A stretch of DNA of 35,607 nt from Clostridia bacterium (GTDB lineage: Bacteria; Bacillota; Clostridia; Peptostreptococcales; JAAYPU01), in assembly GCA_016278615.1 (NCBI GenBank), contig JADQBM010000119.1:1-35607 (forward strand), written 5' to 3'. Shown in pieces: positions 3,149-17,287 of the stretch. Under the pieces are notes generated by a model, which worked only from the letters and a program-made list of their open reading frames with translations, was not told the origin of the DNA and made no database searches. Both the position numbers and the translations under genes were made by a program. Each line of letters starts with the position of its first letter. Position 1 is the stretch's first letter.

Positions 3149-3973
3149 ATGAAAATCACATTAAGAAAGAGAGATAGCGTCACTAGCAGTGTGCTATTTC
3201 TCTTTAATCTACTTGGAGAATACAAAAATGAATATTCCATTAATCTTAGCCACTTAATGGAATTCATGAAGTATTTTCATAAAAGTGAAGCATCTATTCG
3301 AACAGGACTTTCAAGAATGGTTAAAGCAAACATACTCATTAATAAAAGAGAGCATAATGAAATCATATACCAATTAACTGAAGAAGGAGTACAAAATATC
3401 CGTCAATGGAATAAAAGCTTAGCCAAATTTTATAAAAGATATGAGCTAAGGCAGGCAGATTGGAACCATCAATGGTGCTTTTTAACGATACTAGATTTCA
3501 ATAAATCTGAATATAACAATTTATTTATATTAGAAGAGCTTGAAGGGTGTGGGTTAAGGGAGGTTAACAATAATCTCTGGATTACCCCATACAACATTGA
3601 TGATGAAATATTGACTCTATTAAAGAATCATAAGTTCAACTATCTTAAAGGGTTAGGAACGTTTGAAACCAACATGAATTTAAACGACTTTCTTAGGGAT
3701 ACTTTTAACCTTGAAACAATACGTAGAAGGTACATTGAATTCATTAATAAAGTTAAAGAAATTAATAATCAGAGGAATGTCCCAAATGGGAATCTTTTAC
3801 CCATATTATTTGAGGTAGGGTGGGATTTCTACGATATCGTTACATCAGATGCGGTATTGCCAAAGGAATTAATGAAAGACTGGGAAGAAGATCAAGCTGT
3901 AAGAGAGATGAAAGCTGTTAGGTCTGAACTTTACAAGAAAATCAGCGATTTCTTTAAAGAGAATAATTTATAA
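3149..3973 (+). CDS. PaaX-like transcriptional regulator
   Basis: The 274-residue protein begins with a winged-helix domain (about residues 12-80) containing SEASIRTGLSRMVKANIL and YQLTEEG, which match the recognition helix and wing of PaaX, the phenylacetyl-CoA-responsive repressor family. The middle (about 105-175, WCFLTIL...LWITPYNID) resembles the central ferredoxin-like PaaX domain, and an all-alpha C-terminal domain follows. No phenylacetate genes are present, so the effector is unknown. An AGGAGATAGG RBS precedes the ATG. The stop codon overlaps the next start by 1 nt, indicating translational coupling. It is a plausible autoregulator of the dyad-rich promoter at 2831-2882. Confidence 0.82.
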   Translation: MKITLRKRDSVTSSVLFLFNLLGEYKNEYSINLSHLMEFMKYFHKSEASIRTGLSRMVKANILINKREHNEIIYQLTEEGVQNIRQWNKSLAKFYKRYELRQADWNHQWCFLTILDFNKSEYNNLFILEELEGCGLREVNNNLWITPYNIDDEILTLLKNHKFNYLKGLGTFETNMNLNDFLRDTFNLETIRRRYIEFINKVKEINNQRNVPNGNLLPILFEVGWDFYDIVTSDAVLPKELMKDWEEDQAVREMKAVRSELYKKISDFFKENNL

Positions 3974-5292: not shown

Positions 5293-5385
5293 TTAACTTA
5301 TAAAGGCAAACTTATCGAAAGATAAGGACGCAAAGCTATGGATCTACGGATCTTTGATCTAGGATTGCCAGGCTGCTGATTTAAT
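5293..5385 (+). ncRNA. Cyclic di-GMP-I (GEMM-I) riboswitch
   Basis: The conserved aptamer core is present in order: GGCAAAC, the hairpin CTTATCGAAAGATAAG with its GAAA tetraloop, GGACGCAAAGC, then the second arm GGATCTA...TAGGATTGCC. The tetraloop and GGACGCAAAGC are diagnostic of GEMM-I. P1 is AT-rich and poorly defined. GCTGCT at 5372-5377, at the aptamer 3' edge, is complementary to AGCAGC (5408-5413), the 5' arm of the terminator that follows. Aptamer folding and termination may therefore be mutually exclusive. The gene controlled encodes an S-layer-homology surface protein. Confidence 0.9.
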
Positions 5386-5516: not shown

Positions 5517-7079
5517 ATGAAAAAAATGATCTTTATATCAATTTTATTTGTCTTTTTATTCAGTAGTATGGCATATGGTGAATATACAGAATATACAGAT
5601 TACGCAGAACAATTAAAAAGCATAGGAGTTTTTAAAGGAACTGAAAATGGATTTGAGCTTGAAAGAGAGGCGACGAGAGTAGAAGGTTTAATCATGTTTA
5701 TACGTTTGCTCGGACAAGAGAGTGAAGCGTTGGAACAAGATTGGAGTCATCCGTTTCAAGACGTGCCCGGGTGGGCAGATCAATACATAGGTTGGGCTTA
5801 TCAAAATGGATATACGAAAGGAATCAGTCAGACAAAGTTTGGAAGTGGAAATATTGATGCAAAATCATATATGACGTTTTTGTTAAGGGCATTGGGATAT
5901 GATGATTCAAATGGTGATTTTCAATGGGCGCAATCTCTTGAAAAAGGTGGAGAAATAGGGATAATCGAACAGTCAAAAGTTGAAGAACTTGAGAAAGAGA
6001 GATTCATTAGAGGTGATCTAGCATATCTTTCCTATTATACGTTAAATGTAGATTTAAAAGAAAGTGATGTAATGTTAAAAGAAAAGCTTCATATCAATCT
6101 GGATCATAATATTTCGAATAACGAAACAATTCAAGAAGATAATACAATAAATAACGAGCTCCAAATGGCAAATATATATTCCAATGCTGCTAATTTGGGA
6201 CGTATTATAAAAAAGGGAGATTATTTATATTTCAGAGATTCACAAAATGGATTGATAAAACACAACACAATAACAAATGAAAAAGAAACTATTTATAATG
6301 ACGGTGTTGTCAATAATATGAATTTGATCGACAACACGATCTATTTCAGAGACGAGGTTGGTATTTACTACATTGATCTTTCTACATATGAAACTGAATG
6401 TATTCATAAATTCAATTATGCTAACGTTCGACCACAGGCCGGTATGATGTTTATCACAGGAAATGAGATTTATTTCAAAGGCAGTACATTCGGAATAGAA
6501 AAAATGAACTTAGACGGTTCCAATCACAAAGTCTTATATTCAAGTGAAATAATGGATTTTGCAGTTTATGAAAATAAAATCTATTTTATAGATAAAAACC
6601 AGGATGCATTTTATTTTATGAATACAGATGGAACAGACAGAAAATTATTTACAGATATTGAACCGTGGTTTTACTCACGAGGCAGTGCAAATGATGGATG
6701 GATCTATTTTAGAGCGAAATCACCTAATCCGGAATACGCCGGGGCACTTTACAGAATAAAGCCGGATGGAAGTGGCATAGAATGTATCCTTGAAGATTGT
6801 GATTACTATAATTTTATTGAAGATAAAATTATTTTCGTAGTCGTTGACACTGTATATAAAAATAATATGCGATCAGAAACACACAAATTTTATACAAGTA
6901 ATCTCGATGGTACAAATGCTGATAAATTGATGGAAGGAAAAGGAAATGTGAATAATATTTGTGTTGTCGATGATAAAGGGATATTTTACGAAATGTGGGT
7001 TGACGATGATAAAGGAAATGATGGATTTTATTATTTAGATTTAGAAACGCTGAAAAATATAAACTTTGCAGAATATTAA
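5517..7079 (+). CDS. SLH-domain / DUF5050 surface protein
   Basis: The 520-residue exported protein has a signal peptide with hydrophobic core at about residues 4-17 and likely cleavage after SMAYG. Two S-layer-homology repeats follow (about 25-68, ending LEREATRVEGLIMFIRLLG, and about 75-127, FQDVPGWADQYIGWAYQNGYTKG...), with a weak third to about 165. Residues ~215-515 form repeated beta-strand units (YFRD, IYYIDLST, IYFKG, KMNLDGSN, FYFMNTDGTD, YRIKPDGSG, FYTSNLDGTN) typical of DUF5050, a propeller-like extracellular domain. The SLH repeats would anchor it to cell-wall polysaccharide. AGAAGGAG precedes the ATG. The leader carries a c-di-GMP-I riboswitch, so a role in surface attachment or the sessile state is likely; the ligand is unknown. 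Confidence 0.88.
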   Translation: MKKMIFISILFVFLFSSMAYGEYTEYTDYAEQLKSIGVFKGTENGFELEREATRVEGLIMFIRLLGQESEALEQDWSHPFQDVPGWADQYIGWAYQNGYTKGISQTKFGSGNIDAKSYMTFLLRALGYDDSNGDFQWAQSLEKGGEIGIIEQSKVEELEKERFIRGDLAYLSYYTLNVDLKESDVMLKEKLHINLDHNISNNETIQEDNTINNELQMANIYSNAANLGRIIKKGDYLYFRDSQNGLIKHNTITNEKETIYNDGVVNNMNLIDNTIYFRDEVGIYYIDLSTYETECIHKFNYANVRPQAGMMFITGNEIYFKGSTFGIEKMNLDGSNHKVLYSSEIMDFAVYENKIYFIDKNQDAFYFMNTDGTDRKLFTDIEPWFYSRGSANDGWIYFRAKSPNPEYAGALYRIKPDGSGIECILEDCDYYNFIEDKIIFVVVDTVYKNNMRSETHKFYTSNLDGTNADKLMEGKGNVNNICVVDDKGIFYEMWVDDDKGNDGFYYLDLETLKNINFAEY

Positions 7080-8640: not shown

Positions 8641-8668
8641 TTGATTTTTATATTTCTTATGATATAAT
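8641..8668 (+). promoter_or_regulatory. Promoter of the tup operon
   Basis: TTGATT (8641-8646) and TATAAT (8663-8668) are spaced by 16 bp. They lie just upstream of the Moco-family riboswitch and divergent from the thiF-like gene. Confidence 0.65.
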
Positions 8669-8702
8669 ATTTTACGTGCACAAGTTACATAATTTGATAA
8701 TT

Positions 8703-8803
8703 AAATTTTCCGATTTGATTTACCTAAGGCATCGGCTATGGTAAATCAGACGATGGGTATTTGTAGAAATGCATGTGCCTCCCGCGTTTGGAAAGGAAAA
8801 TGG
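8703..8803 (+). ncRNA. Moco-family (Moco/Tuco) riboswitch
   Basis: The 3' part, GCCTCCCG-N3-TTGGAAAGG (8777-8796), has the same GCCTCCCG...GGAAAGG signature as the Moco RNA in front of E. coli moaA. P1 can form between ATTTTCC (8705-8711) and GGAAAAT (8795-8801). A 9-bp P2 stem TGATTTACC/GGTAAATCA (8716-8724/8740-8748) and a small GTATTT-GTAG-AAATGC hairpin follow. I do not see a clear P3 arm; Moco-family RNAs lacking P3 have been proposed to sense tungsten cofactor. Its position ahead of a tungstate transporter fits that proposal. Confidence 0.8.
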
Positions 8804-8872
8804 ATAAAGTTTCTATTTTTTGACTGGTCCTTTCCTTAGGATTATTTTTTTTGTCGATTTAGGTAAAATCGA
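8790..8872 (+). promoter_or_regulatory. Candidate expression platform of the tup riboswitch
   Basis: GGAAAGGA at 8790-8797, conserved within the aptamer, is perfectly complementary to TCCTTTCC at 8828-8835, just ahead of a T-rich stretch (8841-8852). Forming this 8-bp helix would destroy P1. A second hairpin TCGATTT-AGGTA-AAATCGA lies at 8854-8872, followed by TTTT. Either could be the ligand-controlled terminator. The tupA RBS is a further 40 bp downstream. Confidence 0.5.
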
Positions 8873-8927
8873 TTTTACTGAGGTTTTTATTTCTACTGAA
8901 GTATTTGTTTCTAAGAAGGAGGACAAA

Positions 8928-9797
8928 ATGATATTTAAAAAGAGTTTTAAGAGGCCATGGCGCTTCATGGCATTACTTATAGTGTTATCCCTTATTTTTT
9001 CAGGGTGTACACGTACACCACCTGAAGAGGCACCTGAGCAAATTGAAAATCCTAGTTTTATTCTTGCAACGACTACCAGTACTCAGGACAGTGGTCTTTT
9101 AGATGATCTTCTGCCAGTATTCACAGAAGATACTGGCATTGAGGCTAAAGTTGTAGCTGTAGGAACTGGTAAAGCACTACAAATGGGTGTAGATGGCGAA
9201 GCAGATGTGCTGTTGGTGCATGCAAAGGCCGCAGAGGAAGCATTTGTTGCCAATGGGGATGGTCTAAAAAGATTTGATGTTATGTACAATGATTTTGTTG
9301 TTATTGGGCCCAAAAGCGATCCTGCTGGCGTATCAGAAAAAGCGCCTAATAATGTGATAGATGCTTTTACAGCGATACGTGAAACCCAAACGGCCTTTGT
9401 TTCCAGAGGCGATGATTCGGGAACCCATAAGAAAGAGTTGTCTATTTGGGATTCAATTGGCACTATACCCAGTGGAGATTGGTATGTATCTGCTGGAAAA
9501 GGAATGGGGGACGTAATACAAATGGCAAACGAAATGTTGGGATATACCTTGACGGATCGAGCCACTTATTTGTCCATGGCCCAAGGCATCGAGATCATTC
9601 CTTTGGTAGAAGGAGATGAACGCTTGTTTAACCAATATGGCGTTATTGCAGTCAATCCAGAGAAGAATGAAATGATTAATGCTGAAGGGGCACAAGCCTT
9701 TATAGATTGGATTTTATCAGAAAAAGCGCAAGAACTAATTGGCGAATACGGTATAAGTGAATACGGTGAACCATTGTTTGTTCCTAACGCCAAATAA
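8928..9797 (+). CDS. tupA: Tungstate ABC transporter substrate-binding lipoprotein TupA
   Basis: The 289-residue lipoprotein precursor has basic residues, a hydrophobic core and the lipobox LIFSGC with lipidated Cys27. The mature part starts ATTTSTQDSGLLDDLLPVF, the TupA hallmark whose TTTS segment forms part of the oxyanion pocket. SRGDDSGTHKKE and the late QYGVIAVNP segment also match. TupA binds tungstate with very high selectivity over molybdate in characterised systems. The ATG at 8928 has AAGGAGG 6 bp upstream; a TTG at 8820 would extend the ORF but has no RBS and would precede the signal peptide. It is first in the tupABC operon and sits behind a Moco-family riboswitch. Confidence 0.93.
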   Translation: MIFKKSFKRPWRFMALLIVLSLIFSGCTRTPPEEAPEQIENPSFILATTTSTQDSGLLDDLLPVFTEDTGIEAKVVAVGTGKALQMGVDGEADVLLVHAKAAEEAFVANGDGLKRFDVMYNDFVVIGPKSDPAGVSEKAPNNVIDAFTAIRETQTAFVSRGDDSGTHKKELSIWDSIGTIPSGDWYVSAGKGMGDVIQMANEMLGYTLTDRATYLSMAQGIEIIPLVEGDERLFNQYGVIAVNPEKNEMINAEGAQAFIDWILSEKAQELIGEYGISEYGEPLFVPNAK

Positions 9798-9813
9798 GAA
9801 GGAGCTGTTAGAA

Positions 9814-10500
9814 GTGGGAGAAATAATACTAGGGATTGAAGAAGCCTTTTTACTGCTAATTTCATTTAATAAAGAAATTTATGGCATTATCCTTTTATCT
9901 TTATATGTTTCTCTTGCTTCTACTTTTTTTTCTACAATTATTGCCGTTCCTATAGGGACTGCCTTGGGAATGAGGAACTTCAAAGGAAAAGGTATTCTTA
10001 TCCGACTCATTTACACCTTTATGAGTCTTCCCCCTGTTATTGCGGGTTTGTTTGTATTTCTGGTGATTATGAGAAAAGGCCCTTTGGGACATTTGAGGCT
10101 ATCTTTTACGCCTACAGCAATGATTCTGGCACAAATATGTATTGTTGTACCCATTATCGTGGGGCTAACGTATAATGGTGTAAAAGAAAAAGGAAATACT
10201 ATACGGGATCTTGGAAAGACTTTGGGTGCAAATAATAGGCAAACATTATTTTTATTAATTTATGAGATGAGAATTATTATTTTAGCTGCTGTGATTGCAG
10301 GCTTTGGACGAGCAGTCTCAGAAGTTGGGGCGGTTATGATTGTAGGAGGCAATATTAAAGGACATACAAGAGTGATGACCACTTATATTGCCATGCTTCA
10401 AAATATGGGAGATTACAGTAAAGCCATTGCAGTAGGAATTGTGTTGTTGGCGCTATCCTTTCTTATTAATGGCATTCTCTTTAATTTGCAACAGAGATAA
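9814..10500 (+). CDS. tupB: Tungstate ABC transporter permease TupB
   Basis: The 228-residue membrane protein has about five hydrophobic helices. Its cytoplasmic loop contains the binding-protein-dependent permease EAA-type motif region (TLGANNRQTLFLLIYEMR) and GFGRAVSEVGAVMIVGGNIKGHTRVMTT, which is strongly TupB-like. It forms the channel that receives tungstate from TupA. I place the start at the GTG at 9814, 9 bp after AAGAAGGAG. An upstream in-frame GTG at 9757 would overlap tupA and has no RBS. The spacing from tupA is 16 bp. Confidence 0.9.
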   Translation: MGEIILGIEEAFLLLISFNKEIYGIILLSLYVSLASTFFSTIIAVPIGTALGMRNFKGKGILIRLIYTFMSLPPVIAGLFVFLVIMRKGPLGHLRLSFTPTAMILAQICIVVPIIVGLTYNGVKEKGNTIRDLGKTLGANNRQTLFLLIYEMRIIILAAVIAGFGRAVSEVGAVMIVGGNIKGHTRVMTTYIAMLQNMGDYSKAIAVGIVLLALSFLINGILFNLQQR

Positions 10501-10534
10501 AACTTTGTTATGTTTTTTATGGAAGGTAGCGATT

Positions 10535-11248
10535 ATGAATATTTATTTGGAGAATGTGATAAAAGAATATGAAGGAAAGAGGATTGTTCATATTGATGAG
10601 TTGCACATAAAAAATGGGGCACTCTATGGTTTTGTTGGCCCAAATGGAGCAGGGAAGAGCACTTTAATTAAGATGATTGCAGGCCTTGAACCGCTAAATT
10701 CAGGAAATATATATTATGGACATAAACCAAAATCGAACCCTCCTTTTGAAATAATGACCTTAGTATTTCAAAAGCCGTATCTCTTAAGGACAACGGTGGA
10801 AAAGAATATTCTCTATCCCCTCAGACTAAGAGGATGGACTGAGAAAGCCATGGAAGAAAGAGTTACAGAATTGTTAAAGGATATGGGACTTAGTGAATTT
10901 AGAAATCAGAAATCTTGGAAGCTTTCAGGGGGAGAAACTCAAAAAGTAGCTCTTGCAAGAGCCATGTCTTTTCGGCCCAAGCTATTATTATTAGATGAAC
11001 CAACGGCGAACATCGATCCTTCAACCATTGCAATAATTGAAAAAATGCTTCGTAAAGCCAACCAAGAGGAGAAGACCACAGTCATTATCATCACCCATAA
11101 TCTACAGCAGGCCAAGAGACTGTGTAGCGATTTGGTATTTATGCATAGGGGTAATGCCGTAGAACACGGAGATGTAGAAAAAGTACTAAACCACCCAACC
11201 CACAGCCTAACCCAACGTTTTATTGAAGGCGAATTGATTGTGGATTAA
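10535..11248 (+). CDS. tupC: Tungstate ABC transporter ATP-binding protein TupC
   Basis: The 237-residue ATPase has Walker A GPNGAGKST (about residues 35-43), the Q-loop LVFQKPYLL, signature LSGGETQKVALARAM, Walker B LLLLDEP and the H-loop histidine in IIITHNLQQA. The length is normal for a stand-alone ATPase. The start ATG at 10535 follows GGAAGG; the longer frame from 10439 overlaps the tupB 3' end and has no family similarity. It energises TupB and completes the tup operon. Its stop at 11246-11248 is followed at once by purine-rich GTAAGAG units that lead into a heptad array. Confidence 0.93.
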   Translation: MNIYLENVIKEYEGKRIVHIDELHIKNGALYGFVGPNGAGKSTLIKMIAGLEPLNSGNIYYGHKPKSNPPFEIMTLVFQKPYLLRTTVEKNILYPLRLRGWTEKAMEERVTELLKDMGLSEFRNQKSWKLSGGETQKVALARAMSFRPKLLLLDEPTANIDPSTIAIIEKMLRKANQEEKTTVIIITHNLQQAKRLCSDLVFMHRGNAVEHGDVEKVLNHPTHSLTQRFIEGELIVD

Positions 11249-11271: not shown

Positions 11272-11420
11272 AGAGATGACAGATAACAGATAATAGATAA
11301 TAGTTAAGGAAAAGTTTTGCCTAAGGCAAAACTAAATGATTATAATAAAATGAGATGAAGATTTTGAGGATCAAAATCCTCCTTAACTCTTATCTGTTAT
11401 CTATTATCTCTTATCTATCT
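11272..11420. repeat. Composite heptad-array/hairpin element between tupC and moeA
   Basis: The left array of AGATGAC-AGATAAC-AGATAAT-AGATAAT ends in AGTTAAGG (11302-11309). The right array begins CCTTAACT (11381-11388) and continues CTTATCT-GTTATCT-ATTATCT-CTTATCT, so the ends form long inverted repeats. Inside are two perfect hairpins: GTTTTGCC-TAA-GGCAAAAC (11314-11332) and GATTTTGA-GGA-TCAAAATC (11360-11378). The element at about 16663-16829 has the same architecture. No coding function is evident. Confidence 0.85.
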
Positions 11421-11453
11421 TTTCAACCAAGTTATAATATCTCGGAGGTCATA

Positions 11454-12686
11454 ATGAAATTATTAAAGGTAGATACCCTTAAAGAAGTCAAGAAAAAGAT
11501 GGAAATGCATTTTTCAGAAATAAAGCCGAAATATGAAGAAGTCCCTTTACATGATTCTATTGGTAGGGTTTTGGGTGAGGATTTGACGGCTCAGATTAAT
11601 GCGCCTGATTTTAACCGTTCTGTTGTAGACGGATATGGTATTCATGCAGAAGATTCTTTTGGTGCCAGTGAAAGCATGCCTATTATTTCAAATGTCATGG
11701 GCAGTATCGAGATGGGGGAATCTGCTCATATGGTAATTAAAAAAGGTGAATCCGTTTATATTCCCACGGGTGGAATGATTCCTCAAGGGGTAGATGCCAT
11801 GGTTATGATAGAATACGTAGAAATTCTGGACGATAATTCTATTGCCATACAAAAATCAGTTGCACCTGGGGATGGGATTATGGCTGAAGGGGATGATTTT
11901 AAAATAGGGACTTTACTCCTTAAAAATGGGCATAAAGTTCGGACTCAGGATATTGGGGCAATGGCAGCAATAGGAAAATCTAAGGTAAAAGTATATAAAA
12001 AACCTCTTATCTCGATTATTTCTACGGGAGATGAATTGGTAGACATCCAAAGAGAACCCAATCTCGGACAAGTAAGAGATATTAATTCTCATGCCATTGG
12101 TGCTTTGGCTGTGGCAGCAGGTGCAGATGTTCATAGTATTTTTATTGCTTCAGATAATTTTGAATTATGCAAAACCAAAGTAATGGAAGCCCTAATAAAG
12201 AGCGATATTGTTTTAATATCAGGCGGAAGTTCTGCTGGTTCAAAAGATATGACAGTAGATATCATAAATGCTTCCGGAAAACCGGGTGTGTTTGTTCATG
12301 GCATAGCCATAAAACCTGGAAAACCGACGATTGTAGCTAAAATAAATGATAAAGCGGTATTTGGACTACCCGGACATCCATTATCAGCCATAATCGTATT
12401 TAAGGCGGTTGTTGAAGACTTTATCCAAAAGTACTATCTGAAGCATTCAGATGACGAAGATACCCTAATGGCTTTTTTAGATTCAAATGTACATGCATCG
12501 GAAGGTCGAGAGACTTATCAAATGGTAAATCTCATCAAAGGAGCTCAAGGTTATATAGCTATACCCCTTTACTCAAAATCTGGGGCCGTATCCATTTTGC
12601 TAAAAGCGGATGGGTATTTCAGAATTCCTGTAGGTAAAGAAGGTGCTTTGAAAGGCGAACTTGTTGAAGTCGTTTTGTTGAATTAA
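11454..12686 (+). CDS. moeA: Molybdopterin molybdenumtransferase MoeA (paralog 1)
   Basis: The 410-residue protein is the normal MoeA length. It inserts molybdate or tungstate into adenylylated molybdopterin. Visible signatures are the N-terminal segment with APDFNRSVVDGYG, PTGGMIPQGVDAMVMIEY, the GDELV loop in ISTGDELVD, the MPT-binding stretch LISGGSSAGSKDMT, HGIAIKPGKPTIVA and GLPGHPLSA, then a C-terminal barrel domain. The start ATG at 11454 is preceded by CGGAGG; the upstream extension to 11355 is translated heptad repeat and should be ignored. A second, larger MoeA follows after a MITE-like insertion. Confidence 0.93.
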   Translation: MKLLKVDTLKEVKKKMEMHFSEIKPKYEEVPLHDSIGRVLGEDLTAQINAPDFNRSVVDGYGIHAEDSFGASESMPIISNVMGSIEMGESAHMVIKKGESVYIPTGGMIPQGVDAMVMIEYVEILDDNSIAIQKSVAPGDGIMAEGDDFKIGTLLLKNGHKVRTQDIGAMAAIGKSKVKVYKKPLISIISTGDELVDIQREPNLGQVRDINSHAIGALAVAAGADVHSIFIASDNFELCKTKVMEALIKSDIVLISGGSSAGSKDMTVDIINASGKPGVFVHGIAIKPGKPTIVAKINDKAVFGLPGHPLSAIIVFKAVVEDFIQKYYLKHSDDEDTLMAFLDSNVHASEGRETYQMVNLIKGAQGYIAIPLYSKSGAVSILLKADGYFRIPVGKEGALKGELVEVVLLN

Positions 12687-13078: not shown

Positions 13079-14995
13079 ATGAAAAGAAATATTTATTTAT
13101 CCAATATGGATTTAGAGGAAGCTCTAAAAATTTATTTTAATAGGATTCAAAGTTGTATGAGCTCCCTAAAGAAGCAAGAAATAGAGGCTAATCGTTGTGT
13201 GGGAAGGGTTACAGCAGAGCCTGTTTTCGCTCGATGTTCTTCTCCCAATTATAATGCGGCTGCTATGGATGGAATCGCTGTCATTTCTAAATCAACTTTT
13301 AATGCCAATGAACATAACCCTTTGATTTTAGAAGAAGGCGTGGATTTTGAAACCGTTAATACAGGATATATGATTCGTGATCCATACGATGCAGTGATTA
13401 TGATAGAAGATATTGTGGAGATAGATGAGAACCATGTACAGATTATTGTTCCTGCTTCTCCCTGGCAGCATATTCGCCCAATAGGAGAAGATATTGTTGC
13501 AGGTGAAATGATTGTTCCTGCCAATCATAAAATTCGCCCTTGGGACTTGGGGTCTATTTTCAGTGCTGGTGTGAGACAAATATCTGTTTATGAAAAAGTA
13601 AAAGTCGGGATTATTCCAACAGGAACTGAGATTATAGAGCCTCATGAAACGTTAGAAAAAGGATTAATTTATGAATCTAATTCAAGAATGTTTGCAGGCC
13701 TTGTGGCCGAATATGGAGGGGAGCCTTATGGATGCCCTCCAGTAAAGGACGATTACCATTTGTTGAAAAAAGAGATTATGAAGCAAGTGCAAAAAAGTCA
13801 TATGGTCATTGTCAACGCGGGTTCTTCAGCAGGAAGCAAGGACTTTACAAGCACGATTATTAGTGAACTGGGAGAAGTGACTGTTCATGGTATTGCAATT
13901 AAACCAGGAAAACCTACGATTTTGGGTGTCATTCAGGAGAAGCCCATAATTGGAATACCTGGATATCCTGTATCGGCCTATTTTACCTTTGAAGCTTTCG
14001 TAAAGCCTTTAATATTTAAAATGCAAAAAATGAAGCAACCAAAAGAAGAAACGGTGACAGCAATCACTTCCAGAAGAGTGGTTTCTTCTCTAAAGCATCA
14101 GGAATATGTAAGGGTCAAGCTTGGTGAAGTAGGTGGAAAGTTAGTGGCAACGCCTTTGAACCGAGGTGCCGGCGCAACCATGTCTTTGGTAAGAGCAGAT
14201 GGGGTTCTCACAATACCAAGGAACAGTGAAGGTATTGAAGCCGGTGAAAGCGTAGAAATTAAGTTGTTAAAAGATATTTATGACATTAAAAAAACCATCG
14301 TTTCCATTGGAAGCCATGATTTGATTCTTGATATAATAGGAAACCAAATTCAGACAGAGAATCCGGATATCCATTTATCTTCTGCTCATACAGGGAGCAT
14401 GGGTGGGATTATGGCCCTTAGACGGGGAGAAGCACATATTGCGCCCATACATTTGTTGGATGAAGATTCAGGAGAATACAACATTTCATATATAAAGAGA
14501 TACTTTGGAGATAAAAAAATGGCACTGATAAAAGGGGTTAAAAGAGAGCAAGGGATTATGACACTTCAGAGTAACCCTAAAAAAATTGAAAATTTATCCG
14601 ACTTTACAAAAGAAGACATCCGGTTTGTTAACAGACAAAAAGGATCTGGAACCAGAATATTGACAGACTATTTGATGAAGAAAAAATCCATTAATGTAGA
14701 GGATATCACGGGTTATGAAAGAGAAATGATGACCCATACATCAGCTGCTGCTTCAGTTGAATCCGGCTCTGCTGATGTTGCCATAGGCATTTATTCAGCG
14801 GCCAAACATTTTGGGTTGAATTTCATTTCAATTGGATTTGAGTCATATGATTTCGCAATCCCTCAAGAATATTTGAATCTGGAAATCGTACAATACTTTA
14901 TCAGTCAATTAAAAAGTCCCATATTTAAAAAGGAATTAGAGAAGCTGGGAGGATATCAGACGGAAGAGATTGGGGAAGTCGTTATCATTGATTAA
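13079..14995 (+). CDS. MoeA fused to a periplasmic-binding-protein-like (COG1910) domain
   Basis: The 638-residue protein has two parts. Residues ~1-400 are a complete MoeA: SPNYNAAAMDGIAV, PYDAVIMIED, IPTGTEI, VNAGSSAGSKDFTS, HGIAIKPGKPTILG and GIPGYPVSA. Residues ~410-638 are a binding-protein-like domain (HLSSAHTGSMGGIMALRRGEAHIAPIHLLD, FVNRQKGSGTRILTDYL, TSAAASVESGSADVAIGIYSAAK) of the COG1910 type, related to molybdate-binding proteins but without a signal peptide, so cytosolic. A metal- or oxyanion-sensing role for this domain is inferred. A GAAGGTAGG RBS precedes the ATG. Having two MoeA proteins next to tupABC may reflect separate handling of Mo and W. Confidence 0.9.
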   Translation: MKRNIYLSNMDLEEALKIYFNRIQSCMSSLKKQEIEANRCVGRVTAEPVFARCSSPNYNAAAMDGIAVISKSTFNANEHNPLILEEGVDFETVNTGYMIRDPYDAVIMIEDIVEIDENHVQIIVPASPWQHIRPIGEDIVAGEMIVPANHKIRPWDLGSIFSAGVRQISVYEKVKVGIIPTGTEIIEPHETLEKGLIYESNSRMFAGLVAEYGGEPYGCPPVKDDYHLLKKEIMKQVQKSHMVIVNAGSSAGSKDFTSTIISELGEVTVHGIAIKPGKPTILGVIQEKPIIGIPGYPVSAYFTFEAFVKPLIFKMQKMKQPKEETVTAITSRRVVSSLKHQEYVRVKLGEVGGKLVATPLNRGAGATMSLVRADGVLTIPRNSEGIEAGESVEIKLLKDIYDIKKTIVSIGSHDLILDIIGNQIQTENPDIHLSSAHTGSMGGIMALRRGEAHIAPIHLLDEDSGEYNISYIKRYFGDKKMALIKGVKREQGIMTLQSNPKKIENLSDFTKEDIRFVNRQKGSGTRILTDYLMKKKSINVEDITGYEREMMTHTSAAASVESGSADVAIGIYSAAKHFGLNFISIGFESYDFAIPQEYLNLEIVQYFISQLKSPIFKKELEKLGGYQTEEIGEVVIID

Positions 14996-15208
14996 ATTAA
15001 CAATTAATAATGAATAATGAAGAATTATGGTGGATTTTGTTCCAAAATCTTCATTAGTATTTTTTAAACCCTTGTGGATATGAACAATCAATATATTTAT
15101 AATCCATAAAGCTATTATTATAATTTTGTTATAATGGAAGGCTTTGCCTTAAGGCAAAGCCAACCTCAATTATTCATTATTCATTGTTCATTATTAATTT
15201 GAGAAGGA
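14996..15208. repeat. Composite heptad-array/hairpin element between moeA2 and moaA
   Basis: The left array AATTAATAATGAATAATGAAG starts one base after the moeA2 stop. The GATTTTG-TTC-CAAAATC hairpin is at 15033-15049. A perfect 22-nt palindrome centred on CCTTAAGG with GGCTTTG/CAAAGCC ends lies at 15140-15161. The right array TTATTCATTATTCATTGTTCATTATTAATTT mirrors the left one. The middle (15060-15135) is AT-rich with TTGTTATAAT but no supported promoter. Confidence 0.8.
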
Positions 15209-15216
15209 GTAACAAC

Positions 15217-16176
15217 ATGAAAGATCAATACGGAAGAGAAGTAAATTATTTACGGGTATCTATAACGGATTTGTGTAATTTGAGATGTCAATATTGTATG
15301 CCTGAATCAGGGATAGAAAAGAAGGCACACTCCAATATTTTATCTTTTGAGGAGATTATAGAAATCGTTGAAACTGCTGTGGAATTGGGCATAGACAAGA
15401 TAAGAATAACTGGTGGGGAGCCCCTTGTGCGTAAGGGCGTGGTTTCGCTTATTCACAGCCTTTCTCAAATCAAAGGCATTAAGGATTTAGCCATGACCAC
15501 CAATGGTATTTTATTAAAAGAATATGCAAAAGATCTCAAAGATGCTGGGTTAAACAGAGTGAACGTAAGTTTAGACACATTGAATGAAGAGCGATACAAT
15601 GAGATTACCAGAGGAGGAAATATTGAGGCCGTTATGGAAGGTCTGGAAGCTGCTATGACCGTAGGTCTAACACCCTTGAAGATAAATACAGTTGTGATTA
15701 AAGATTTTAATGATGATGAAATCATGGATTTTGTTCAAATGACTCTGAACTTACCTATTGATGTAAGGTTCATTGAATTGATGCCAATAGGGCAAGTAGG
15801 AGTAGAAGGAAAGCATCAATTCATGTCCAATAAGGAAATTCGTGGTAAACTTCAAGGGCTTATTCCCGTTGAGACAGAAGATTCTGTTGCAAAGATTTTT
15901 AAATTTCCTGGCGCAGAGGGAAGAATTGGATTTATCGATCCCATTAGCAGCCATTTTTGTAGTACATGCAATAAAATAAGGCTTACGTCGGATGGGAAAG
16001 TGAAGACTTGTCTTCATAATAATGATGAGGTTGATTTGAAAGACATTTTATTAAAAAAGGATCACCAGCTTCTAAAGAATACTATTGAAGCCGTCATTTT
16101 AGATAAGCCGGAAAGGCACCATCTTAATGAGGCACAGGAACCTATTACTCGTGACATGAACAAGATAGGAGGCTGA
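15217..16176 (+). CDS. moaA: GTP 3',8-cyclase MoaA
   Basis: The 319-residue radical SAM enzyme catalyses the first step of molybdopterin synthesis, converting GTP to 3',8-cyclo-GTP. The radical SAM cluster is CNLRCQYC (CxxxCxxC). The C-terminal [4Fe-4S] motif is CSTCNKIRLTSDGKVKTCL (CxxC-x13-C). RITGGEPL is the SAM-binding GGE motif, and the chain ends in the Gly-Gly tail MNKIGG needed for activity in MoaA. The ATG at 15217 follows GAGAAGGAG; the frame upstream to 15184 is translated repeat. moaC starts 6 bp after the stop. Confidence 0.96.
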   Translation: MKDQYGREVNYLRVSITDLCNLRCQYCMPESGIEKKAHSNILSFEEIIEIVETAVELGIDKIRITGGEPLVRKGVVSLIHSLSQIKGIKDLAMTTNGILLKEYAKDLKDAGLNRVNVSLDTLNEERYNEITRGGNIEAVMEGLEAAMTVGLTPLKINTVVIKDFNDDEIMDFVQMTLNLPIDVRFIELMPIGQVGVEGKHQFMSNKEIRGKLQGLIPVETEDSVAKIFKFPGAEGRIGFIDPISSHFCSTCNKIRLTSDGKVKTCLHNNDEVDLKDILLKKDHQLLKNTIEAVILDKPERHHLNEAQEPITRDMNKIGG

Positions 16177-16182
16177 TGAAAC

Positions 16183-16671
16183 ATGGACTTGACACATATG
16201 GACAAAAAAGGAAGACCAAAGATGGTAGATGTTGGGGATAAAATGGATACCGAGAGAATGGCTGTAGCCAAAGGGACCATTGAAATGTCCTTGGATACGA
16301 TTCTTAGAATAAAGGAGGGACACATTGCCAAGGGAGATGTTCTTTCAGTAGCACAAACAGCCGGTATTATGGCCGCAAAAAATACATCCTACACAATCCC
16401 TATGTGTCATAATATATTCATTTCAGGGATTGAAATGGACTTTAGAATTGATATAGAGAATCAGGCCATTTATATCGAAGCATGTGCAAAGACCATTGGG
16501 AAAACTGGAATAGAAATGGAGTCTTTGAATGCGGTCTCAGTTGCGGCGTTAACCATTTATGATATGTGCAAAGCCGTAGATAAAAATATGATAATCACAG
16601 ATATTCGCCTGGTAAAGAAAGAAGGCGGGAAGTCTGGTACTTATATTAGGGAAGAAGAAAAAGATAGATAA
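16183..16671 (+). CDS. moaC: Cyclic pyranopterin monophosphate synthase MoaC
   Basis: The 162-residue protein rearranges 3',8-cyclo-GTP to cyclic pyranopterin monophosphate, the step after MoaA. Conserved segments are [45 protein letters not shown], and [26 protein letters not shown], followed by the [14 protein letters not shown] end with the catalytic lysine region. AGGAGG in the moaA 3' end serves as its RBS, so translation is coupled. The last codons and the TAA stop lie inside the first units of a heptad repeat, so the KDR tail appears to be repeat-derived. Confidence 0.95.
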
Positions 16672-16829
16672 TAGATTAGAAAAGATAGATAACAGATAAC
16701 AGATAATAGATAAAAGTTAAGGTAAGTTTTGCTTAGGCAAAACAATCATACTATGTTTAAATATAATGTAGATTTTGTGAAACAAAATCCTCCTTAACTG
16801 TTATCTATTATCTCTTATCTTTTATCTCA
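16663..16829. repeat. Composite heptad-array/hairpin element between moaC and the MOSC gene
   Basis: The left array of AGATAGATAATAG, then ATAACAGATAACAGATAAT, ends in AGTTAAGG. The right array starts CCTTAACT and runs GTTATCTATTATCTCTTATC. Hairpins GTTTTGC-TTAG-GCAAAAC (16726-16743) and GATTTTGT-GAA-ACAAAATC (16771-16789) have the same order as in the 11272-11420 element. The left array overlaps the moaC stop codon. Confidence 0.85.
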
Positions 16830-16855
16830 CAAAGTAATGAAGGGAGAGGTTTGGA

Positions 16856-17287
16856 TTGGCGGAAGTTTTAGCGATTAATACCAGTGATAAAAAAGGGGTC
16901 ATTAAGGTGCCAGTAAAAGAGGCTGAATTGATTGAAGACTTCGGTATTCAAGGGGATGCACATGGAGGGCCCTGGCATAGACAAATCAGTTTGTTAGCGG
17001 ATGAAAGTGTGGATAAAATGAGAGCCTCGGGAATTGAACTCAACAGTGGGGTTTTTGCAGAGAACATTACCACCAAAGGCATAGAGCTCCATACACTTCC
17101 CGTAGGAACCAGACTAAGAATCGGAAAAACCATTCAAGAAGTAACTCAAATAGGAAAAGAGTGCCATCACGGCTGCGCCATTAAGCAGCAAGTGGGACAT
17201 TGCATAATGCCTACTGAAGGTATTTTTACAAAGGTCATCAAGGGCGGGAAATTAAAAGCCGGTGATACCATCGAGATAATCGAATAA
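16856..17287 (+). CDS. MOSC-domain protein
   Basis: The 143-residue stand-alone MOSC domain is related to the C-terminal domain of molybdenum cofactor sulfurases and to YiiM. Family features are GIQGDAHGGPWHRQISLLA near residues 31-49 (with the G-D-x-H segment), FAENITTKGIEL, LPVGTRLRIG and the conserved-cysteine region ECHHGCAI...GHCIMPTEGIFTKVIKGG. MOSC proteins bind or transfer sulfur to pterin cofactors, and stand-alone clostridial ones commonly lie in moa/moe operons. The start is TTG at 16856, 6 bp after GGGAGAGG. It is probably the last functional gene of this cofactor cluster. Confidence 0.88.
   Translation: MAEVLAINTSDKKGVIKVPVKEAELIEDFGIQGDAHGGPWHRQISLLADESVDKMRASGIELNSGVFAENITTKGIELHTLPVGTRLRIGKTIQEVTQIGKECHHGCAIKQQVGHCIMPTEGIFTKVIKGGKLKAGDTIEIIE

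Follow-up and report, generated by a model that had tools for sequence, protein, structure and literature searches.

The Moco RNA motif (Rfam RF01055, the Molybdenum/Tungsten riboswitch) lies upstream of tungsten and molybdenum transport and cofactor genes, and is built from the helices P1, P2 with a tetraloop receptor, P4 with a GAAA loop, and P5, together with the conserved stretches CCTCCCG and GGAAAGG (Regulski et al., PMC2408646). In 2008 copies lacking the P3 helix were proposed to be sensors of the tungsten cofactor ('Tuco'), and terminators have been known 3' of some members since the same year (PMC2408646). The E. coli moaA Moco RNA, for which repression by the cofactor is expected, is reported to mask the ribosome-binding site (RBS) with P1. 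Here we examine the leader of a tungstate importer operon in the window, by which we mean the whole 35,607-nucleotide stretch of Clostridia bacterium DNA that was analysed (contig JADQBM010000119.1). We place this leader in the known family as a new and well-resolved member with a classical terminator/anti-terminator platform, and what is worked out here for the tupA locus is the specific anti-terminator/terminator pair.

A sequence-only reading of the locus had placed the leader in the Moco class on the strength of a GGAAAGG signature and had seen no P3 arm, and both observations are borne out. By cmscan, 8696-8814 (+) matches RF01055 at 77.8 bits (E 2.3e-17), against a gathering score of 36 and over the full length of the model (positions 1-135); it is the only RF01055 copy in the 3.5 Mb genome. 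Alignment and folding recover all the hallmarks of the family. The 5' strand of P1, ATTTTCC (8705-8711), pairs with 8795-8801; P2 (8714-8750, 8714-8724 with 8740-8750 in the cmscan alignment) carries the receptor CCTAAG...TATGG; P4 (8755-8780, 8755-8765 with 8770-8780) is capped by GAAA at 8766-8769; and P5 (8781-8791) is closed by CC 8781-8782 with GG 8790-8791. The conserved core consists of GCCTCCCG (8777-8784) and GGAAAGG (8790-8796). The P3 columns were left empty by Infernal, and only the four-nucleotide linker CGAT (8751-8754) stands in their place, between the 3' strand of P2 and the start of P4 at 8755. In fold the RNA thus shares every listed element with the described motif, and we find no feature that would put it outside the family.

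The genomic context is equally typical, with the aptamer preceding the gene order tupABC-moeA-moeA-moaA-moaC on the same strand. Its direct link to a tungstate importer, as the sequence-only reading had it, holds at the level of homology: tupA (8928-9797), whose ATG at 8928 lies 114 nt 3' of the aptamer behind the RBS AAGGAGG (8916-8922), matches NF041772 (E 2.3e-70) at 237 bits, below the equivalog cut-off of 400 bits, and the tungstate-binding protein of PDB 3lr1 (E 8.6e-67), so that its tungstate specificity is judged from family and PDB relatives. The nearest named TupA loci are those of clostridia such as Schnuerera and Tepidibacter. A tupB-like permease (9757-10500) scores above the cut-off of NF038017 and below that of the TupB family NF041773 (151 bits), and a tupC-like ATPase (10439-11248) matches NF041774 (E 8.5e-41) as one of many ABC ATPase families, none of which reaches its cut-off. 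There follow moeA (11355-12686), a moeA with a PBP-like C-terminus (13079-14995), moaA (15184-16176) and moaC (16183-16671). Upstream, TTGATT-16-TATAAT with TG before the -10 (8641-8668, +; 10 of 12 consensus positions) is only a candidate promoter, as two such sites were found where shuffles give 2.2. Two further observations concern the window at large: MoaC and a MOSC protein are encoded by separate genes 185 nt apart (16183-17287), where NCBIfam PRK14499 describes a fusion, and a c-di-GMP-I riboswitch (5295-5380, +; 81.8 bits) lies 136 nt before the open reading frame (ORF) 5517-7079.

The 3' part of the aptamer core has a second partner. The complementarity claimed between GGAAAGGA (8790-8797), which forms the 3' strand of P5, the junction and P1, and TCCTTTCC (8828-8835) is exact, with eight Watson-Crick pairs. 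The aptamer 3' element pairs with its own downstream 100 nt at -14.7 kcal/mol, compared with -9.1 kcal/mol in shuffles (z -3.2, p 0.02, 100 shuffles). The strand exchange proposed from this pairing stands in part: the helix and the ligand-bound core are mutually exclusive, each using GGAAAGGA, but the process does not end with this helix, which competes with an intrinsic terminator (8825-8852, +) that had gone unseen, a hairpin TGGTCCT-TTCCTT-AGGATTA (8825-8831 with 8838-8844, loop 8832-8837) with eight T directly after it (8845-8852). With two G-U pairs and -5.7 kcal/mol the stem is a weak one, and a terminator scan of the leader with default rules reported none because its rule wants three G-C pairs and the stem has two. 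Because TCCTTTCC spans the terminator 5' arm (8828-8831) and, with its remainder, the loop, the helix and the terminator cannot coexist; the helix is therefore an anti-terminator, with GGAAAGGA as its 5' and TCCTTTCC as its 3' strand, and this arrangement predicts an OFF switch. A second, weaker terminator-like structure (8834-8892, +), in which CCTTAG (8834-8839) pairs with CTGAGG (8878-8883) and is followed by TTTTTATTT, is possibly due to chance; it has no counterpart in the nearest relative, L004.

Enforced folds indicate which state the free RNA would adopt. With the transcript extended to 8836, the point at which successive folding flips away from P1, the anti-terminator state has -40.9 kcal/mol against -36.8 for P1, and at 8852 it has -44.0 against -37.6 for P1 plus terminator. 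The anti-terminator state being lower in energy, the apo RNA favours read-through, and the ligand must pay the difference or act kinetically, through folding speed. We consider it probable that the leader is a P3-lacking Moco-family riboswitch through which plentiful pterin-metal cofactor causes premature termination of transcription and so reduces tungstate import. Without ligand, GGAAAGGA would leave the aptamer core and pair with TCCTTTCC, the hairpin 8825-8844 would be blocked, and polymerase would continue into tupABC; with ligand bound, P5, the junction and P1 would retain GGAAAGGA, leaving TCCT available for pairing with AGGA, and polymerase would stop at the U8 tract. As natural ligand the tungsten-bearing cofactor is most likely, or else the cofactor with either metal. 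What computation shows is the match to the aptamer model, the complementary strands, the terminator and the conservation of the arrangement; that a ligand binds, which metal it carries and whether it represses or activates is what we infer. The E. coli moaA RNA shares the fold and the expected repression by cofactor, but the window RNA is predicted to terminate transcription instead of masking an RBS.

Conservation was assessed in 86 RF01055 matches from 60 genomes of the window's order, in TupA loci of named genomes (80 collected, of which 60 were scanned for the RNA), and in about 110 matches from the phylum. Among 96 non-redundant leaders drawn from the order and TupA-locus sets, the core complement CCTTTC occurs within 100 nt downstream in 25, against 3.0 expected from shuffles (8-fold), and TCCTTTC downstream in 14, against 0.9 (about 15-fold). 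A terminator-like hairpin lies 3' of the aptamer in 77 of the 96, and in 41 of these 77 a complement to the GGAAAGG core sits in its 5' arm or loop (a raw count). L004 has the same terminator arrangement as the window, TAATCCTTTCCGAGGATTA-T8. Where P1 has changed, the downstream partner has changed too, as in L028 (GGAAAGTAATCAA with TTGATTGCTTTC), and in L090, L092 and L095 GGAATG is matched by CATTCC in the terminator loop; a swap test restricted to the variable flank, over all relatives, is marginal (p 0.038).

Several of these relatives have contexts of their own. At L004 (1502-1783, genome G001) the switch is kept while the first long ORF, a MATE transporter, is 550 nt away; tupA has probably decayed there, as 13 residues at 1745-1783 still match TupA (E 0.007). 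Two tandem Moco RNAs precede tupA in a Desulforudis MAG (L129, 2040-2358), and in the second of them the P5/P1 core is degraded. P3-less Moco RNAs also precede S-layer (SLH) proteins that are secreted and match Oxidored_molyb weakly (L016, L021 and L060, also L039); L035 and L058 fall in the same ORF cluster as the SLH proteins of L016, L021 and L060, and at L016/L058 two Moco RNAs stand in tandem 255 nt apart. L032 and L316 lie near an ABC_cobalt (PF09819) permease-type protein (by Pfam in L032, by sequence resemblance in L316), possibly an unrecognised importer of a metal or pterin.

A distinct sub-group of weak RF01055 members is found before operons for aldehyde:ferredoxin oxidoreductase (AOR). 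Four P3-less RNAs (L080, L081, L082 and L084) have the core CTGCC/GCAAAGG with P5 swapped, lack the P2 receptor and mostly carry loops other than GAAA; the 3' strand of P1 in the aptamer doubles as the 5' arm of their terminator. Searching the order and phylum with a covariance model built from these four (R1) recovered eleven further members with E below 1e-11; listed for the sub-group are L080, L081, L082, L084, L297, L299, L312-L315 and L317-L320. Parsing succeeded for ten of the new members: in nine an AOR reading frame lies no more than 1.5 kb away, and the remaining one reaches the end of its contig. Since R1 covers P1 and only a few nucleotides beyond, the terminator 3' arm lay outside the search, and by a strict test a P1-strand terminator is present in 8 of these 10 against 5 of 94 ordinary RNAs. 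A looser test for ON-type hairpins was positive in 26 of 94 standard RNAs and was discarded as too noisy in favour of the strict one. These RNAs are predicted to be ON switches for tungsten-enzyme genes. The window RNA lies outside the sub-group, with CCTCCC/GGAAAGG and an R1 score of 42.7 bits against 65-104 for members, and no AOR-type variant was found before the window genome's own AOR genes (the region 5' of the second gene in an adjacent AOR pair on C102 left out). In a literature search conducted mostly at the level of titles and abstracts, with partial journal coverage, we found no description of the sub-group.

The sign and the metal of the tupA switch admit other readings, of which the most substantial, an appreciable though minority possibility, keeps the OFF switch but has it sense the molybdenum cofactor or fail to discriminate the metal, P3 loss being a trait of the lineage and tungstate import filling a common pterin pool. 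With the 'Tuco' subtype (PMC2408646) the window RNA shares the absence of P3, tupA as first gene and a genome with tungsten-type genes; P3 loss is, however, lineage-wide in the window's order and weak evidence there. P3 status was sorted against the first gene in 213 RNAs, the phylum sample consisting of best-scoring matches, and was scored by helix search because MAFFT misaligned the P5 loop; ModA, WtpA and MobA labels were given by reading the sequences, except L030, which is WtpA by NCBIfam. At phylum level P3 absence does correlate with tungsten-type first genes, a split that tells against the molybdenum reading: TupA-like first genes follow 45 copies without P3 and 5 with it, and ModA-like ones 2 without and 11 with (Fisher p 4.6e-7, kinship ignored), while WtpA-like (4), TupB-like (5) and AOR-like (7) genes all follow P3-less copies and the two MobA-like genes follow copies with P3. 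Yet five P3-bearing copies precede tupA (L121, L125, L130, L138 and L270; the fold served to assign L121, where the script called no ORF), and P3 is missing from all parsed standard Moco RNAs of the window's order, including four before XDH-family aldehyde oxidoreductases. The one odd exception in the order, L085 (around 3500-3640, - strand), has a P3-like hairpin TGGACCAAAGGGTCCA with a GCAA loop, and its downstream genes resemble a ferredoxin, a MoeA-like protein and TatC. As copies in the order are nearly all P3-less whatever the gene, the absence of P3 says little about the window copy, and alone it should not serve as a tungsten marker. Better support for tungsten comes from the transporter together with nine AOR-family genes in the genome (nine AFOR_C matches against one MoCoBD_2, XDH-family, and two PF00384), which makes tungsten specificity of the window riboswitch plausible; since an XDH-family gene and PF00384 genes are also present, molybdenum cofactor may be too. 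The P3-bearing RNA of E. coli, moreover, was reported to be unresponsive to tungsten (PMC2408646), a further point against the molybdenum reading.

Two other explanations concern the downstream pairing itself. No other local structure is as stable as the helix of GGAAAGGA and TCCTTTCC (-14.3 kcal/mol including an inner helix), and the AOR-linked sub-group does contain genuine P1-strand terminators, so that the helix could be a terminator or transcript-stability element with the ligand turning tupA ON; but it is followed in the window by TTAGGATTA, with no U tract, whereas U8 stands directly behind the competing hairpin, and an importer would be expected to be repressed by its end product. We regard this as improbable. 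Slightly less probable still is that the pairing is a chance echo of the purine-rich core, with control through the RBS, by some other route or absent. The core is of low complexity and the window's own p is only 0.02; against this stand the strong excess of core complements across relatives, their conserved position within terminators, the same design in L004, and an RBS lying 60 nt past the terminator. The attenuation of tupA by a bound cofactor is our preferred reading.

Taken with the AOR-linked sub-group, the tupA leader may belong to a tungsten-cofactor regulon of two signs, a proposal to which we give somewhat less than even weight: ordinary P3-less copies, such as that before tupA, would be OFF switches acting by termination, and the AOR-linked RNAs, with swapped P5, no P2 receptor, a non-GAAA loop and the P1 strand as terminator arm, would be ON switches responding to the same cofactor. 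The sub-group is the better test object, because its target enzymes belong to a tungsten family. For the tungstate importer, an explicit and mutable switch makes the tungsten-cofactor proposal of 2008 testable with tungsten or molybdenum.
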